37,362 nt of DNA from Elusimicrobiota bacterium (GTDB lineage Bacteria; Elusimicrobiota; Elusimicrobia; 2-02-FULL-39-32), in assembly GCA_016180425.1 (NCBI GenBank), contig JACPBF010000021.1, positions 1-37,362 of the forward strand. The letters run 5' to 3'. The notes beneath the pieces were generated by a model, which was not told the DNA's origin, did not search any database, and was given only the letters and a program-made list of their open reading frames with translations. Shown here in pieces: positions 9,859 through 37,362 of the stretch. Positions within the stretch are counted from its first letter, which is position 1; each line of letters opens with the position of its first letter. The position numbers and the translations under genes are program-made.

Positions 9859-10326
9859 TCATCCTGCTTGTGGACGACCTCCTTTTCTTCCTCCTCCTCC
9901 TCCTCCTTTACCTCCGCCACCATCACTACCACTACTTTTTTCAGGGGGTTTTATTCTATACCGACTTACTCTTGTGCGGTCCCATGTGTGTCTAAACGCG
10001 GTTCCAGGCAAGTCCCACGTATCTTTTTCATATTCGATTTTGTACTGAACATTAAACTCAAGCTTTTTATTTGAAAAAAGGCACCTAGCATTGCCGCGAT
10101 CACACTGAAAGCGATAATGATAAAATCCTACTTCTTTTATCTTAGCTTGGTTATAATAAGTATGACTGGTATCTGCACCATAATCCCCCACGATGGTAAA
10201 GGTAGTACCATCTGTAAAGTATTGATACTCAGTTACTATCAGCTCTTCTGCAAAACTTTTATCACAAAATCCAATCATTCCTAATGTAATGAGGGAAGCA
10301 GCTAAACAAAACTTTATGATTTTCAT
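9859..10326 (-). CDS. Small exported protein with Gly-rich basic tail
   Basis: The gene encodes 155 residues from ATG 10326, with GGGGG 10 bases upstream. Longer readings in the same frame would run through the terminator and the riboswitch and are rejected. It has a signal peptide (MKIIKFCLAASLITLG..., cleavage near SFAEE). The following roughly 100-residue domain has Tyr/His/Asp-rich strands and two Cys close together (QCDRGNARCLF). The C-terminal tail is SSGSDGGGG, then alternating Gly with Lys/Arg, ending RPQAG. No family recognised. It is the first gene behind a c-di-GMP-I riboswitch with terminator, so expression is probably c-di-GMP dependent. The tail could bind polyanions or the cell surface; that is speculation. 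Confidence 0.75.
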   Translation of the reverse strand: MKIIKFCLAASLITLGMIGFCDKSFAEELIVTEYQYFTDGTTFTIVGDYGADTSHTYYNQAKIKEVGFYHYRFQCDRGNARCLFSNKKLEFNVQYKIEYEKDTWDLPGTAFRHTWDRTRVSRYRIKPPEKSSGSDGGGGKGGGGGGRKGGRPQAG

Positions 10327-10350
10327 GACATTATTTCCCCCATTAGAAAT

Positions 10351-10384
10351 AAAAAACCATCTCTCCTTTAAAGGAGTGAGATGG
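10351..10384 (-). terminator. Intrinsic terminator between riboswitch 2 and its genes
   Basis: Minus strand: CCATCT pairs with AGATGG, with CTCCT/AGGAG stacked inside, followed by TTTTTT. It lies 39 bases after the aptamer and 25 bases before the ATG at 10326, so it must be read through or disrupted for expression. Confidence 0.88.
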
Positions 10385-10422
10385 TTTTGTGATAGTGTGA
10401 TAAATTTTAAATTCATTAGAAT

Positions 10423-10507
10423 CCTTCGGTAGCTTGGCGATCCTTTGATTGAATCTAAAAAGGACCCATCGCTTTGCGCCCCCACCTTACAGTGGATTTG
10501 CCTTTTC
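10423..10507 (-). promoter_or_regulatory. Cyclic-di-GMP-I (GEMM) riboswitch, copy 2
   Basis: The RNA shows all GEMM blocks: AAAGGCAAA, a CCAC/GUGG hairpin, GGCGCAAAGCGAUGGGUC as the conserved core, a long GGUCCUUU/AAAGGAUC hairpin, and GCUACCGAAGG at the end. The downstream bases UGAAUUUAAAA can pair perfectly (one G-U) with UUUUAGAUUCA in the second hairpin, a possible switch between aptamer and alternative fold. With the promoter and terminator around it, this is a complete transcriptional riboswitch. Confidence 0.88.
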
Positions 10508-10556
10508 CCCTACTAATAGCCAGGGGTTTTCGAGACTCCAGACTTACGACAACCTA

Positions 10557-30129: not shown

Positions 30130-31731
30130 ATGAAAATAAATCTAGAAAATTTAAGCGAGCTAGAAAAACTTTCTCGCCAATTTTTCCCTGAACCCAGAGT
30201 TCTTTTGATCAATGCTTTTCAAGTTCCTTATGATAATTCCGTAGCTACTGCCAAAACCTGCTACTCCTCTAAAGTCATTTATCCAGAAGATGTGAGTAAA
30301 GATGAATCCGCTAGGATTCGCAGGGATGCGATTGCAAAAAGCACTTACCTAGCCGGCCACCACACCACTTTACAGCACGCCACGTTTCAATTTGTAATTG
30401 AGCGGGTGAGCCGTCAGCTGATTTGGAGTTTTCTCCACAGCCATCCATTTTACAATAGCGAGCAGGTAAGCCAGCGCTATGTGGCAGTAGCGCCTTCTAA
30501 CTTTGCCCTGCCTCCCATGAATGAAGAAGAAAAAGAAGAGTATTTGAAAACCATCCAGATCAGCATGGCTGCGTATGAAAAACTGCAAGTTCTGCTTAAA
30601 CCCACAGTAGAAAAAGAATATCTAAAAATATTTCCAAACAGAAGTTTGTCAGAAAAAAAATGGCAGTCTGCGATTAAGAAAAAAACCCAGGAAATTGCGC
30701 GTTATGTTTTGCCTTTAGCCACGCACGCGCATCTTTATCACACCATTTCTGCTTTAACTCTTCTGCGCTATTTAAGGCTCTGCCAAATTTTTGACGCGCC
30801 TTTAGAACAAAAAATTGTTGTTTTTAAAATGACGGAAGAGGTAAAAAAATGGGATCCTGAGTTTTTTAAAAACGCGGAAGACCCCATGGCTTTAGAAGAA
30901 ACGCCGGAATACCAATATTTTCTTGACCAAAATGATCTCCCAACTCTGGAAGCGGAAGATTTTAAAAAAGAGTTTGACGATTCTTTAGGATCTTACAGCT
31001 CCAAACTCCTGGATTACAAAGTGAATGCTGAAAAAACCATGGCTCATGCGGTTAGGACGATTCTTGGCCAAACAGCCAAAAATTTAGAAGATTCTAAAGC
31101 GATCGGCATGGCGCTGAACCCAGGTAAAAATCGTTATCTTGCGGAAACTTTAAATTTAAACTACCAGGCAAAATTAAGCCGCGCCATGATCCATCCCCAT
31201 TTTACTTTTAGAAAAAAAATCTCTCATACCGCGGATTCCCAAGACCAAAGGCATCGCACTGTGCCCGGATCAAGGCCCATACTCTCCAAACATTTTTCTT
31301 CTCTTCCAGACTACATCATTCCACAACTGATCAAAATGAATCAAGAAGCTTATGAATTTTATACACAAACCATGAAAGAGCTTTGGAGCCAGATGAATCG
31401 TCTTTTAAACCAAAAATTAGAAATCGCTCATCTGCTTTATCTCCTGCCCAATGCTTTCCCTATCCGCTTTGAAGAGTCTGGCAGTTTAATTGATTTTCAC
31501 CATAAATGGACGCATCGGCTCTGTTACACTGCCCAAGAAGAGATTTGGAAAAACTGTTTAGAAGAAACCACGCAGGTTCAAGAAATTTTTCCAAATATTG
31601 GAAAATATCTTTTTGCGCCCTGCGCATTAAGGAAATATGCTAGTCGGAAACCTTTCTGCCCAGAGGGGGATAGATTCTGCGGCGTGCCTGTCTGGACGCT
31701 CAATCTTAATCAATATCAAAGGATCCTATAA
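30130..31731 (+). CDS. thyX: Double-length FAD-dependent thymidylate synthase ThyX
   Basis: Methylates dUMP to dTMP with FAD and methylene-tetrahydrofolate. 533 residues, twice a standard ThyX (~220-250): two ThyX-like halves in one chain. The RHRX7S-type motif is split between them. The first half keeps SEQVSQRYV (110-118) but has SHP (104-106) in place of RHR; the second half has RHR (374-376) but not the SxRY part. Each half has its LP...LRYLRL or LLP...HRL core helix. The C-terminus carries APCALRK ... CPEGDRFCG, a Cys set typical of this ThyX type. I recall chlamydial ThyX being of similar length. Followed by purA after 1 base. Confidence 0.92.
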   Translation: MKINLENLSELEKLSRQFFPEPRVLLINAFQVPYDNSVATAKTCYSSKVIYPEDVSKDESARIRRDAIAKSTYLAGHHTTLQHATFQFVIERVSRQLIWSFLHSHPFYNSEQVSQRYVAVAPSNFALPPMNEEEKEEYLKTIQISMAAYEKLQVLLKPTVEKEYLKIFPNRSLSEKKWQSAIKKKTQEIARYVLPLATHAHLYHTISALTLLRYLRLCQIFDAPLEQKIVVFKMTEEVKKWDPEFFKNAEDPMALEETPEYQYFLDQNDLPTLEAEDFKKEFDDSLGSYSSKLLDYKVNAEKTMAHAVRTILGQTAKNLEDSKAIGMALNPGKNRYLAETLNLNYQAKLSRAMIHPHFTFRKKISHTADSQDQRHRTVPGSRPILSKHFSSLPDYIIPQLIKMNQEAYEFYTQTMKELWSQMNRLLNQKLEIAHLLYLLPNAFPIRFEESGSLIDFHHKWTHRLCYTAQEEIWKNCLEETTQVQEIFPNIGKYLFAPCALRKYASRKPFCPEGDRFCGVPVWTLNLNQYQRIL

Positions 31732-31732
31732 T

Positions 31733-33028
31733 ATGCCAAGCATTGTTGTGGTTGGAACTCAGTGGGGAGATGAAGGCAAAGGAAAAATTGTCCATCTCCT
31801 AGGAAAAGAAGCGGACATGATTGTCCGTTACCAAGGAGGGCCTAACGCGGGGCACACGGTTGTTTTTGACGATAAACTGTTTGTGCTGCATCTAATTCCA
31901 GCGGGGATTCTAATCCCTAAAAAAATCTGCGTTATTGCTAATGGGGTGGTGGTAGATCCGCTTGCGCTCCAGGAAGAAGTAAAGCTGCTTGAAGAAAGAA
32001 AAATTAAAGTTGAAGGAAGGCTGTTCATCTCAGAGCTTGCGCACCTTATTTTACCTTATCACAAAATTTTAGATGTGGCTAAAGAAGAATCAAAAAAAGG
32101 AGAAACTAAAATTGGAACCACGCGTAAAGGCATTGGCCCTGCCTACGCAGATAAAGTGGAGCGGGTAGGGATCCGTTTAAGCGATTATTTAGAAGAAGAT
32201 ACTTTTAAAGAACTCCTGGAACAAAATTTAAAATTAAAAAAAGAATATTTAGGGAGCCCCTCTCAGATTGAAGAGCTTAAAAATCAAATTCTTACCCAGG
32301 CTAGCTCTTTAAGACCTTTTTTAAAAAAATTCGCGTGCGATAGTTCTTTATCTCTTAATTTGGCTTTAAAAAAAGGGAAAAAAATAATTTTTGAAAGCGC
32401 TCAAGGCACAATGCTGGATATTGATTTTGGAACCTACCCTTACGTAACCTCCTCTAACCCTATTGCCGGAGCAGTAGGCTCAGACTGCGGCATTGGTCCA
32501 AACAAAATTGGCTCTGTGCTAGGCATTGTAAAAGCCTATACCACCAGAGTTGGGGAAGGACCTTTTCCTACAGAATTAGATGATGAAGTAGGAAAAAAAT
32601 TAAGAGAGGTGGGAAAAGAATTTGGCGCTACCACAGGCAGGCCTCGCCGCTGCGGCTGGTTTGACGCTTTAGTGGTTCAAAGATCCGTAAACGTCAATGG
32701 CATAGAAAAGTTAGCCTTAACCAAACTAGATGTGCTTCAAGGAATTAACCCTTTAAAAGTTTGCATCGCCTATGAACACCATGGGCGAATCCTAAAACAT
32801 TTTCCCAATTCAAGAAAAGTATTGCAGGAATCTAAGCCTATTTACAAAACTTTAAATGGTTTTGGCGAAATTGGAAAATCTGTTCGGCGCTTTAAAGATC
32901 TGCCTCTTCCAGCGCAAAAATATGTTCAATTTTTAGAAAAAATTTCCGGAGCAAAAATCTCTTTTGTCTCTTTAGGTCGCAGCCGCGATGAAACCATCCG
33001 AATCACCCAAACCTCTCTTTGGAACTAA
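31733..33028 (+). CDS. purA: Adenylosuccinate synthetase
   Basis: GTP-dependent formation of adenylosuccinate from IMP and aspartate, first step of the AMP branch. 431 residues from ATG 31733 (AAAGGA 7 bases upstream), which fits the family; a longer in-frame reading overlaps thyX. Motifs: P-loop QWGDEGKGK at 10-18, NAGHTV, GTTRKGIGPAYADK, SSNPIAGA and the GTP-binding TKLDVL. Co-transcribed with thyX. PurB, which completes AMP, is not in the window. Confidence 0.97.
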   Translation: MPSIVVVGTQWGDEGKGKIVHLLGKEADMIVRYQGGPNAGHTVVFDDKLFVLHLIPAGILIPKKICVIANGVVVDPLALQEEVKLLEERKIKVEGRLFISELAHLILPYHKILDVAKEESKKGETKIGTTRKGIGPAYADKVERVGIRLSDYLEEDTFKELLEQNLKLKKEYLGSPSQIEELKNQILTQASSLRPFLKKFACDSSLSLNLALKKGKKIIFESAQGTMLDIDFGTYPYVTSSNPIAGAVGSDCGIGPNKIGSVLGIVKAYTTRVGEGPFPTELDDEVGKKLREVGKEFGATTGRPRRCGWFDALVVQRSVNVNGIEKLALTKLDVLQGINPLKVCIAYEHHGRILKHFPNSRKVLQESKPIYKTLNGFGEIGKSVRRFKDLPLPAQKYVQFLEKISGAKISFVSLGRSRDETIRITQTSLWN

Positions 33029-33114: not shown

Positions 33115-33143
33115 TTGACTCTTCCTACTTCTCCTGTTAAAGT
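33115..33143 (+). promoter_or_regulatory. Probable promoter of the giant-protein transcript
   Basis: TTGACT (33115-33120), 17-base spacer, TAAAGT (33138-33143). Start would be near 33150, giving a leader of about 240 bases that contains the hairpin at 33156-33190 and the riboswitch. Confidence 0.55.
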
Positions 33144-33155
33144 TACGGTATGATT

Positions 33156-33194
33156 GAACGCGTAAGAATTTAACATTCTTACGCGCGTTCTTTT
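33156..33194 (+). terminator. Strong hairpin with T-run: purA terminator or leader hairpin
   Basis: GAACGCGTAAGAAT pairs with ATTCTTACGCG...TTC (two-base CG bulge, 5-base loop), followed by TTCTTTT. It would end transcription from thyX-purA. If the promoter at 33115-33143 is used, it would be the first structure of the new transcript and could act as an attenuator. Confidence 0.55.
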
Positions 33195-33266: not shown

Positions 33267-33293
33267 ATGGGCAGAGATCACATAACCCGATAA
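33267..33293 (+). other. Possible 8-codon leader peptide abutting the riboswitch
   Basis: AGGAG four bases before ATG opens MGRDHITR-stop. It has the best ribosome site in the leader, and its TAA overlaps the first bases of the aptamer (AAAGGCAA). Ribosomes here would block aptamer folding. It may be chance; nine codons is too short to judge by coding bias. Confidence 0.3.
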
Positions 33294-33386
33294 AGGCAAC
33301 CTCTAATGAAAGTTAGAGTGCGTGCGCAAAGCCACGGGACTTAACTCGCCAGATGTTTGGTGAGCATGCCAGCCGGGCCGCCGAAC
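33292..33386 (+). promoter_or_regulatory. Cyclic-di-GMP-I (GEMM) riboswitch, copy 3
   Basis: GEMM blocks in order: AAAGGCAACC; hairpin CUCUAAU-GAAA-GUUAGAG with the GNRA tetraloop expected to dock in the second helix; core GCGCAAAGCCACGGGACUU; hairpin CUCGCC/GGUGAG; and GCCAGCCGGGCCGCCGAA closing the aptamer. It ends 4 bases before the ATG at 33390 and no Shine-Dalgarno lies between, so control is probably translational: the closing helix would fall within the ribosome footprint. No terminator is seen between aptamer and gene. Confidence 0.9.
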
Positions 33387-33389
33387 GTT

Positions 33390-36300
33390 ATGAAAACTAA
33401 CCAATTTAATAATAATCCGTCCTGGCTGCGTCATACGTCATTAGGTATGGCTATAGTCTTTTTTTATGTTCAGGTGGGATATGGAGTGATCGAGCCTTTG
33501 GCTCAAAGTCAAAGAGAGAAGAAGTACGCAAAATTGTGGGAAGAGAGAAAAGCTGCTGTAAAGAAGTTAAGGAATCAAGATCAAGGAGAAGAGAACGTTG
33601 GAGAATCCTCAGCAGTCGTAACACCAGCCAGAGTAGTTCCACCCAAACAAGAAGATAGTTTTATTTCACAACTTCCAGCTTTAAATCTTAACATTTTAAA
33701 GAACTCCATTTTTAGAGTAGAGCCCTTTGCGCCAAGCGCCAGCGACTACTCTATTGACTCAGATGATAAAGAAATGAAGATTTCTCGGTTAGTTAAGTCG
33801 CTTCCTACTTGGTTTCAATCTGTGCCTGTTCAGTTTGCGAATTTAGAAGATCTTTATCTGCCTCCTAATTGGAAGATGAATGATTTCATGGTGATCCATA
33901 TCATGAAGAGAGTTCATTCATCCTCCAAATCTAAGATCGTAGTGGGATTAGAAGGAGCAGAGGGATCCTTTAATTTTACTCCCTATCGCTCGTTTCCAGA
34001 CAAACAGATTGTAAAAGAAGTTGCAGATCATTTACTCAAAGAATCTTTAATTTCTGGTGTAGAGTTTGTGGGAATGACATTGAATCTTACAGATTCTAAC
34101 CTATCTCCACAAACTCCCAGACATACCACATCTCCCCAAAGTCTCAGATATTCATCCTTAGCAGGCAATAGAGAATCTCCCCAGTCTAACCCATCTCCAC
34201 AAACTCCCATATCTTCATCCTTATCTTTAGCGGGTCATCCGCTCTTATTCTGGGGTATAGAAGATAGAAACCTATATTCCCAGCATGTGCGAGCTTTTAA
34301 AGATTCTGTTTTAATAGAGAAACAGGCGAAACAATCGCTCTTTCAATTAAAGTCTGTAATGAACCATCTAAAACCAAACATCTTAAATCCAGAACTACAA
34401 AAACTAGATTCTAATATTAGTCAATACTATCAAGGCACACTCAGTTTAAGCAGTTATTTAAAACATTTAACTGAACCTGGAATTCCATCAAACTCGCCCA
34501 TGATTCGCAACTATATGAATGCTCTGGTTTTAGAAGAAACTCTGGACTTTGATAAAGTTGAAACAGAAAGAAGATATCTGACTAACGCATTAACAGAAAA
34601 GTTATCTAAATCAGAGCTAACCAATCTGGTCTCTGCCAGCTTATCTTATAGACTGGGGAATATCAGTTATGGACTGTTTTATCACTACTTGTTAGAACTC
34701 TGTAAAGCTTATGGAATTGGCTTAAGCCAATGGCCAGAAATGGACAAATATGTTCGTTATGTATTGATCTCAGACAAGATTAAGAGTGCAGATTTATTTA
34801 GAGAGATGGGTGAATTAGAACAAAAAAGGGTCAAGAGCCTGATCTCTACACCAAACGAAAAAGCATTTATTGATTTATCCCAAGACGTAGGTGTAATAGA
34901 AAAAATGGTTGAGTTTAAGTTAAGTCCAGAAGAGTGGGAACAATACGCAAAGAGAAAGGATGAGATTAAAAAGATAGGAGTCAGGATCGCAGAGCTTAGA
35001 GAGATTATATCTAACAGAGCTAACCTGCCAAACAGGGGAAAGATCAAAATAAAGACAACTAACCTTTTAGATAAGAAAGAGATTAGAGATAGCAAAATCG
35101 AAAGTGAACAGATCAGAGAGAACAAAGAATCAGTTTCTACTATCAGTGATCTAACCTTTAAATTTGAAGTTCTTGAATCTTTTGAGAGATTCAATGAAGC
35201 AGCCATGTCTAGGAACTCTGCTCTGGTCAATAACCTTTTAAAGAAAGTTTATAACCAAACTTCTAGTTCTTCAAATTCCTCTATTCGCCAGCCATCCATT
35301 GCAGTTCTAGTAGCAGGCGGGTTCCATACTACAGGTGTTACAGAACTGCTCAAACAAAAGAAAATAGCGTATGCGGTCTTTTCTCCAAAACTTGGGATTG
35401 TGGAAGGGTCAGGCGCGGATTATTTGAACCTATTCCGCAGAGATAAAACTCCATTAGAAAAACTCTTTGTAGGTGAACGGATCACACTTAAATCTCCCAT
35501 TGGAACTACGACTGAACCTCTAGGAGAAGAAGTCCCATTTGTTCTGCCAGCTCTGGAAGGAGAGTTCTCCACATTGGCGGTCGCGAGGTATGTATTAAAG
35601 AATCTTAAATTACACACAAACATAAGCAAAGAGTTAAGAAAAGAATATACCAAAACTATCTTAAATTGGATTCAGGATGAGAACCAATTCCATACGATCC
35701 ATAAAATACAAATAAGAGAGATTGAAGAGAGTAGAGATCATAATGGGACCATTAACAATCTAAGAATTACTTTAGATATTACAGGACCTATTAATGGTGA
35801 ATCTAAAACTCGTACACTGACTGTATCTCAATTTGCTAAAGAAGAGGGTGGTGCAGGTGCGGTGGGTACAGGTACAAGCGCAGGAGCGGGAGGGGTGGGT
35901 GCGGGGACAAACGCAGGTACGGGAGTGAGTGGGGATGGGAATGGAGATGCAGATGTGCGCGCAGGTGCAAGAGTAAGTGGGGGCGTGAGTGTGGGCGCAG
36001 GTCAAACCATTGGAATGAATAACTCTGCAAAAGAGGTTATGAGATTTAAGTATGGAGACGAAACTATTGTTTTTATTCAAGAACCGCGTACTCTTACTCA
36101 AAAAGCAATGGAAACAGCTGGCGTTACTGCTCGCTCCATACTCCCACTGGTACTGCCTATTTGGAAAAAGATATTTAGTCAGACCTTATTGAATAATCGT
36201 TTATTTGTTTCAACAGTAATTCCTATTTTAGAGTTGTGGGGATTGCCAGGATTTTCTTTAGCTTTAGCATCTCTCTTAGGGATCTGGGTTTCTGCTGTTC

Positions 36301-37362
36301 CTGTAGGACTGTTAATCTGGATTTCCGTGCCTGTGGGAGCGTTTCTCTTTGCTCTGTTGCATGGAATCCCTCAACCTCAAGAAGGAGATATGATCTCTCA
36401 AGGTAAAGAATTAATCCCTCAAGAAACACGAGCTCCGCCACTTAACACAACACAAACTGCTCCTACAACTGGAGTTGGTTTAAAGGGATGGAACAGTCCT
36501 CAAACAGATACTGGTATAAAAGTGTCTGCCCCTCTTATAGGAATCCAAACCTACAAACAGTTCATGGTTAGATTTGTCGCAACTATGGTGATCGCCTCTA
36601 TCGCAATTCTTTTATCATCCTTCCTCACCCCGTATCTCTTACCTCATGCTTTGCCATTCATTCAGAACATAATTCATCCTTTTGGTTTAGATATTTCATC
36701 AAAGATTGTACAGGACTTACTCACCTATTTATTCGCTGGGGGACTGCATGGAGTTTTTAACTGGTTTGCGCCTCAAGAGTATAGGCTAAGCATTACTGGA
36801 ACTTTACCGCCGCTAGTAACACCAGTCACACCTCCAACACAGATGACTCCAGAAAATAAGATTAGCATTCTACCCTCTCCACCAGAGAGGCAGATCGCGG
36901 TAGTCAAAAAAACCCAAGGCTCTAAAATCGTTTCACTCCAATCATTTAGAAGAGATAAAGAAAAAAGAGATGGCGACTCAAGCTCTGCTGACACACCCAC
37001 AGGTAAGGGCGCATTTACAGGCGTTAGCGCTGGTAAAACTGCTGTTACAAGCGTTGGTACGAGTGCCCAGACAAAAGAATGGATTAATCCAATGAATTGG
37101 ATTCCCAATATAAAAGCCATCCTGATCTCTGCTGTACTATTGGCGCAGACACTAAATCCCGCAGCGGCTTTCAACAGGATCGCGTCAAATCTTCTGCTCC
37201 ATCTGAACCAGCCTATTCTTGCGGAAAAGGTATTTAATTTTCAGATTAAACAGCGAGAACTAAAGATTGCAAATCAGGAGATGAGCAGGATCGCTCCTTC
37301 CATATTAGAGGATATGGAATCTTTAAACAGAACCCCTATCCCGGATTTAAAAGACAAACTAA
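33390..37362 (+). CDS. Giant exported protein, N-terminal part (runs off the right edge)
   Basis: An uninterrupted frame of 1,324 codons with no stop in the window. The N-terminus looks like a signal peptide or anchor (hydrophobic core LGMAIVFFYVQVGYGVI, then AQSQ). Next, residues 185-215 read VGLEGAEGSF ... FPDKQIVKEVADHLL, and 637-650 IAVLVAGGFHTTGV. I associate both with very large Omnitrophota proteins, from memory. Further on are a helical, Lys/Glu-rich part (about 470-620), a Gly/Ala-rich low-complexity linker (818-873), hydrophobic clusters that are probably transmembrane (915-992, 1057-1098, 1110-1127, 1238-1262), and Pro/Thr linkers. The ATG at 33390 lacks a ribosome site and sits 4 bases after a c-di-GMP riboswitch; GTATG at 33447 is an alternative start. 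No enzyme motif is certain. Total length is unknown. Confidence 0.85.
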   Translation, partial: MKTNQFNNNPSWLRHTSLGMAIVFFYVQVGYGVIEPLAQSQREKKYAKLWEERKAAVKKLRNQDQGEENVGESSAVVTPARVVPPKQEDSFISQLPALNLNILKNSIFRVEPFAPSASDYSIDSDDKEMKISRLVKSLPTWFQSVPVQFANLEDLYLPPNWKMNDFMVIHIMKRVHSSSKSKIVVGLEGAEGSFNFTPYRSFPDKQIVKEVADHLLKESLISGVEFVGMTLNLTDSNLSPQTPRHTTSPQSLRYSSLAGNRESPQSNPSPQTPISSSLSLAGHPLLFWGIEDRNLYSQHVRAFKDSVLIEKQAKQSLFQLKSVMNHLKPNILNPELQKLDSNISQYYQGTLSLSSYLKHLTEPGIPSNSPMIRNYMNALVLEETLDFDKVETERRYLTNALTEKLSKSELTNLVSASLSYRLGNISYGLFYHYLLELCKAYGIGLSQWPEMDKYVRYVLISDKIKSADLFREMGELEQKRVKSLISTPNEKAFIDLSQDVGVIEKMVEFKLSPEEWEQYAKRKDEIKKIGVRIAELREIISNRANLPNRGKIKIKTTNLLDKKEIRDSKIESEQIRENKESVSTISDLTFKFEVLESFERFNEAAMSRNSALVNNLLKKVYNQTSSSSNSSIRQPSIAVLVAGGFHTTGVTELLKQKKIAYAVFSPKLGIVEGSGADYLNLFRRDKTPLEKLFVGERITLKSPIGTTTEPLGEEVPFVLPALEGEFSTLAVARYVLKNLKLHTNISKELRKEYTKTILNWIQDENQFHTIHKIQIREIEESRDHNGTINNLRITLDITGPINGESKTRTLTVSQFAKEEGGAGAVGTGTSAGAGGVGAGTNAGTGVSGDGNGDADVRAGARVSGGVSVGAGQTIGMNNSAKEVMRFKYGDETIVFIQEPRTLTQKAMETAGVTARSILPLVLPIWKKIFSQTLLNNRLFVSTVIPILELWGLPGFSLALASLLGIWVSAVPVGLLIWISVPVGAFLFALLHGIPQPQEGDMISQGKELIPQETRAPPLNTTQTAPTTGVGLKGWNSPQTDTGIKVSAPLIGIQTYKQFMVRFVATMVIASIAILLSSFLTPYLLPHALPFIQNIIHPFGLDISSKIVQDLLTYLFAGGLHGVFNWFAPQEYRLSITGTLPPLVTPVTPPTQMTPENKISILPSPPERQIAVVKKTQGSKIVSLQSFRRDKEKRDGDSSSADTPTGKGAFTGVSAGKTAVTSVGTSAQTKEWINPMNWIPNIKAILISAVLLAQTLNPAAAFNRIASNLLLHLNQPILAEKVFNFQIKQRELKIANQEMSRIAPSILEDMESLNRTPIPDLKDKL
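34096..34209 (+). repeat. In-frame imperfect direct repeat, period 90 bases
   Basis: A 24-base unit at 34096-34119 recurs at 34186-34209 with one difference, 30 codons apart and in frame, encoding SNLSPQTP and SNPSPQTP. The surrounding SSLAG is also partly repeated. This indicates a local duplication in a Ser/Pro-rich linker of the giant protein. Confidence 0.75.

Follow-up and report, generated by a model that had tools for sequence, protein, structure and literature searches.

A recurrent c-di-GMP-I riboswitch with a predicted gene-internal expression platform on giant genes of Elusimicrobiota

The rightmost gene on a 37,362-nucleotide stretch of Elusimicrobiota DNA (contig JACPBF010000021.1; hereafter the window) opens directly behind a c-di-GMP-I riboswitch. 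An Rfam covariance-model scan matches the aptamer to RF01051 at 44.8 bits, above the gathering score of 35, bearing out the c-di-GMP riboswitch that a sequence-only reading had placed ahead of the giant gene. The window's own genome contains ten c-di-GMP-I aptamers, six of which precede close paralogues on contigs C10, C19, C21, C32, C34 and C41; C41 is our label for the window's contig, leader and protein, other C labels without a prefix denote further contigs of the same genome, and G001 is a genome of the same genus. A seventh aptamer, on C39, precedes a related N terminus. The paralogue aptamers score 40–75 bits, and that of the G001 orthologue, at 33.8 bits, falls slightly under the gathering threshold. 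The genome also encodes GGDEF proteins, indicating that c-di-GMP is probably made in the host, and we infer that the C41 copy of the aptamer binds it. The earlier reading had proposed a search of Omnitrophota proteomes; the genome belongs to Elusimicrobiota. Features of the locus are listed in Table 1.

Table 1. Predicted and annotated features of the C41 leader and giant gene, in window coordinates
Feature	Position	Strand	Support
Candidate sigma-70-like promoter, TTGACT-17-TAAAGT	33115–33143	+	Consensus match only
Perfect hairpin GAACGCGTAAGAAT..ATTCTTACGCGCGTTC, close to the probable mRNA 5′ end	33156–33190	+	Kept in 5 of 6 abutting leaders
P1 5′ strand; 33281–33283 (CAU) opposite the start codon	33281–33287	+	One register in six leaders
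c-di-GMP-I (GEMM-I) riboswitch aptamer core	33285–33385	+	RF01051, 44.8 bits
Candidate antiterminator strand, aptamer 3′ half, pairing with 33417–33437	33359–33381	+	−21.4 kcal/mol; synonymous-shuffle p = 0.058
P1 3′ strand, holding the start codon	33386–33392	+	One register in six leaders
Start codon ATG, 4 nt 3′ of the aptamer, without Shine-Dalgarno	33390–33392	+	Same spacing in five relatives
Giant-protein ORF, 1,324 codons without a stop before the contig end	33390–37362	+	Orthologue of 6,984 aa
Predicted terminator hairpin within the ORF, codons 12–23	33424–33458	+	Synonymous-shuffle p = 0.023
U7 tract of the terminator, encoding FF of VFFY	33459–33465	+	GTC TTT TTT TAT in 6 of 6 abutting leaders
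Conserved N-terminal domain, about residues 130–730, shared by paralogues that occur in many copies per genome	33777–35579	+	

The frame stays open to position 37362, as had been noted, and since the contig itself ends there, the missing stop is in part a consequence of the assembly. The contig's final 137 bp are 96% identical to C24 and its final 160 bp 88% identical to C17, so the assembly broke in a repeat; if C41 continues as C24 does, the frame would end about 46 codons on. The claim of a very large gene is upheld by the orthologue in G001, which is complete (50478 to 29526 of its contig), encodes 6,984 aa, carries its aptamer 4 nt before the ATG and is 71% identical to C41 over residues 899–1278. 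Within the window's genome the C41 protein has dozens of matches, in frames that reach 10,906 codons, and complete paralogues measure 1,824, 2,365, 5,085 and 5,781 aa. The conserved N-terminal domain occurs in 20 of 117 sampled genomes of the class, mostly with 10–23 matches apiece. Giant paralogues of very different length have both this domain and the C terminus in common, the latter ending in LLALQQ or a close variant in C34 (L024), C10 (L025), C32 (L027) and G001_C10 (L097).

What these proteins do is only hinted at by their relatives. Pfam and NCBIfam models gave nothing above threshold on the window protein, which has a conserved N-terminal hydrophobic segment and in which no adhesin domain was found. 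Its sisters carry a PP2C domain (C10) and ABC1 kinase and M48 peptidase domains (C21 and the G001 orthologue); because these are phosphatase, kinase and protease domains, the earlier label of a surface protein, for which only the hydrophobic segment speaks, is unsupported. The AF2 model of the N-terminal domain (pLDDT 62) is too weak for a fold to be named and gave no Foldseek hit. A comparison with EreA/ChaN/TraB-like proteins placed Ere-type structures in VIA-align rows (3b55, 2rad and 6xcq, Z 4.9–5.3), within background, and calmodulin-like PDB matches of the domain profile (E 0.0013) were set aside as probably reflecting charged helices.

Alone among six aligned members, C41 lacks the HIQDAHENxEAQKNIARII block (at 33886–33930), its end matches a copy on C24 in which a stop follows within 46 codons, and sister C19 has an in-frame TAG, all of which would suit a decaying copy, truncated or non-functional, within a working family. 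We consider this unlikely, given 1,324 codons open without a stop, the identity to the orthologue over residues 899–1278, and a leader and P1 that are intact. In C19 (locus L031) the riboswitch and embedded terminator are likewise intact and the TAG follows after 287 codons, so that this sister is a possible pseudogene.

The earlier reading ended the last helix of the aptamer at about 33386, before the ATG at 33390, and found no ribosome site between them. The four-base spacing and the lack of a Shine-Dalgarno sequence (none is present in GAACGUU) are both confirmed, and the spacing is the same in C41, C32, C34, C19, G001_C10 and G004_C132, the six leaders that we call abutting. The end of the helix lies elsewhere: P1 passes through the ATG, so the aptamer does not stop short of the start codon. 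Pairing of the flanks 33281–33287 and 33386–33392 takes a single register in all six abutting leaders, with AUG facing CAU in four of them, and 85.7% of cells in the six-row alignment are paired, as against 21–42% when the alignment is slid. Two pairs have changed on both sides, giving a covariation score that was reached in 6 of 500 shuffles. The C41, C32, C34 and G001 leaders are related, so this support counts as roughly three independent lineages; these are genera-level lineages, and compensatory changes are present among them. The comparison thus establishes the predicted P1 register through the start codon. It is specific to the giant family, the register over the AUG not being regular in other abutting leaders of the class, and in ligand-free minimum-energy folds the AUG is not freed in most leaders.

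The start codon had also been proposed to be hidden by pairing with 33431–33437. Hiding is likely, with P1 in the place of that partner. The pairing of CGUUAUGA with 33431–33437 does exist, with a one-base bulge; we rejected it as a mask because neither the close paralogue C32 nor the orthologue G001_C10 has the complementary segment, and because 33430–33436 constitutes the 5′ arm of the terminator hairpin. An upstream in-frame ATG inside the aptamer (33366) was discarded as a start, being absent from C34, C19 and G004. Further upstream, a short ORF encoding MGRDHITR (33267–33293) has a good Shine-Dalgarno sequence (AGGAGAA) and codons that overlap the P1 5′ strand; it is kept in C34, has lost its start (ATA) in C32 and is absent from G001_C10.

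Direct translational control by c-di-GMP, as first suggested, survives in that P1 likely hides the start codon. Translation is probably not the only level of control, since the ORF contains a predicted intrinsic terminator. In C41 a hairpin of −11.7 kcal/mol is followed directly by U7, within codons for ...GMAIVFFY, and was also picked up by an independent scan. We recoded the first 50 codons with synonymous codons and recorded the share of trials yielding an equally strong terminator: 2.3% for C41, 3% for G001_C10, 0.3% for C34 and 35% for C32, with none of 300 trials matching the native terminator in C19 or in G004. The predicted terminator occupies the same ORF position in all six abutting leaders and is stronger in C34, C19 and G004, those of C19 and G004 being strong despite differing encoded residues; in C32, the nearest paralogue, it is weak (−7.2 kcal/mol, p 0.35). 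The VFFY codons read GTC TTT TTT TAT in every abutting leader. A second type of leader, found in C10, C21 and C39 and in their G001 and G005 counterparts, has an ordinary intrinsic terminator between aptamer and ORF, and in three of three such sisters TTC breaks the tract. Together these comparisons demonstrate, at the level of sequence, an embedded terminator in C41.

The same data bear on a switch acting on translation only, in which P1 conceals the start codon once c-di-GMP binds, while the hairpin and its U-tract are incidental features of the ORF. The conserved P1 register, an ATG without Shine-Dalgarno and the retention of P1 in C32, where the terminator is weak, all fit such a switch. 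We nevertheless regard it as distinctly unlikely: U7 is lost only in sisters that have another terminator upstream, and the synonymous-shuffle and control-ORF tests show that, across the class, embedded terminators are more than incidental. Of 86 c-di-GMP-I riboswitches in the class, 33 are followed at 0–9 nt by the first ATG of an ORF of 100 aa or longer. Among 28 ORFs that abut a riboswitch in this way, 14 have an embedded terminator at p ≤ 0.033; among 78 control ORFs, 2 do (Fisher 3e-8). Both sets passed an equal hydrophobicity filter, some of the genes are related to each other, and for a few, such as that at 10425–10512 of the window, the start may lie beyond the terminator. The predicted arrangement is thus repeated in paralogues, in the orthologue and in other families of the class. 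We tentatively extend it to a class-wide gene-internal platform in Elusimicrobiota, in which P1 would hold the start codon, a ligand-gated terminator would lie in signal-peptide codons, translation start and elongation of giant genes would be gated together, and the ribosome may antiterminate.

For C41, the reading that we favour with moderate confidence is a c-di-GMP-I riboswitch whose compact expression platform overlaps the gene under its control, c-di-GMP leading both to closure of P1 and to formation of the terminator. With c-di-GMP bound, P1 would close over the start codon and the terminator encoded by codons 12–26 would form, halting RNA polymerase about 75 nt into the gene. Without c-di-GMP, the aptamer 3′ strand could pair with the terminator 5′ arm and transcription would go on; as an alternative or additional route of antitermination, a ribosome starting at 33390 would keep the hairpin open and could replace the antiterminator. 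In C41 the pairing of 33359–33381 with 33417–33437 is not significant by itself, nor is such pairing significant in the other abutting leaders, and we do not treat the antiterminator as a general trait of these leaders. Among sisters with an upstream terminator, complementarity of the aptamer 3′ strand to the terminator 5′ arm is present in C10 (p 0.014), G003_C48 (0.004) and G007_C41 (0.012), the latter two being related in sequence. This pairing in the sisters suggests ligand-induced termination, and because ligand-stabilized P1 covers the AUG, an OFF polarity is indicated; the polarity, the antitermination route that acts and the coupling of the two layers are all inferred.

The same two lines make it improbable that c-di-GMP instead relieves termination and starts synthesis of the giant protein. 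Known c-di-GMP riboswitches have both polarities, which counts in favour of such an ON switch. A further point in its favour is Bc1 of Bacillus thuringiensis, with its opposite effects on transcription and translation (PMC11218506). Covering of the AUG by ligand-stabilized P1 and the complementarity seen in several sisters both stand against it. It is most improbable that the true start is Met20 (33447), within the terminator 3′ arm, which the earlier reading had named as an example of a downstream start that would refute it, with the riboswitch a transcription attenuator and AUG 33390 unused. Met20 is conserved in nine of nine relatives compared, and a precedent exists in the metA leader of Sinorhizobium meliloti, a SAM-II riboswitch (PMC9373788), but codons 12–19 keep W, R, T, S and L with mostly synonymous changes in core relatives (45 synonymous versus 36 non-synonymous pairwise codon differences), and in C10, C21 and G005 the first ATG lies just past the separate terminator, upstream of the same residues.

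The aptamer of the favoured OFF switch is of a known kind: it has the sequence and fold of RF01051 c-di-GMP-I riboswitches, which exert one-gene cis control through terminator or start-site platforms. Unlike in the usual members, the start codon here lies in P1 at a fixed 4-nt spacing and the predicted terminator lies in the ORF rather than in the 5′ UTR. The closest parallel is the S. meliloti metA SAM-II leader, in which the aptamer is followed by AUG1, a validated intrinsic terminator and an in-frame AUG2; AUG2, beyond the terminator, serves as the start, and no ligand control of the terminator is predicted (PMC9373788). That leader likewise places a terminator inside a potential coding frame behind a riboswitch, but its ligand and aptamer differ, and in C41 the U-tract is coding with either start. 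Bc1 resembles C41 in its c-di-GMP-I aptamer, its combined effects on transcription and translation and a start codon that is paired in the ligand state; it differs from C41 in that its platform occupies a long 5′ UTR, where two terminators precede a normal ribosome site, and that its effects at the two levels are opposite (PMC11218506). The literature searched, which included few subscription papers, yielded the metA leader as the one close precedent for a terminator within coding sequence behind a riboswitch (PMC9373788), and no such case for c-di-GMP.

Giant ORFs are known in Omnitrophota (PMC10066038), and a second report describes huge proteins as enriched in Elusimicrobiota (PMC11573180). 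The cases in the two reports resemble ours in coming from uncultured bacteria and in having ORFs of thousands of codons with few recognized domains. Unlike the Omnitrophota ORFs, the C41 family belongs to Elusimicrobiota and has PP2C, ABC1 and M48 domains in sisters; the Omnitrophota paper makes no mention of c-di-GMP or riboswitches (PMC10066038), and the literature searched yielded no link between c-di-GMP and giant Elusimicrobiota genes. The system is thus a known riboswitch class with an unusual, predicted gene-internal platform on giant genes, and it is real and recurrent. If our reading is correct, a riboswitch can have its whole expression platform within coding sequence, where codon choice serves RNA structure no less than protein, and c-di-GMP is tied to giant genes in Elusimicrobiota. 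Halting about 75 nt into the gene would spare the cost of making a transcript as long as 21 kb.

Several neighbouring and related loci add detail. The upstream neighbours of the C41 leader (30130–33028) encode adenylosuccinate synthetase and, in an ORF of 533 aa, a ThyX-type thymidylate synthase; neither has an evident connection in function with the giant gene. The hairpin at 33156–33190, kept before the aptamer in C32, C34, G001_C10 and G004_C132, is possibly an mRNA-stabilizing element. A second c-di-GMP-I aptamer in the window (10425–10512, minus strand, 62.6 bits) is followed after 8 nt by the ATG of an ORF (9859–10416, same strand) that runs through a strong predicted terminator (−16.9 kcal/mol), and a second ATG, with a signal peptide, lies at +98. 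Elsewhere in Elusimicrobia, c-di-GMP-I riboswitches abut the start codons of proteins of about 540 aa (loci L147, L149, L154, L155 and L156), mainly PorV/PorQ-like proteins plus TPR, with one FecR-domain protein. At L062 (G001 contig C16, 151666–154304), a c-di-GMP-I aptamer with an upstream terminator is followed by an open frame of 13,472 codons.
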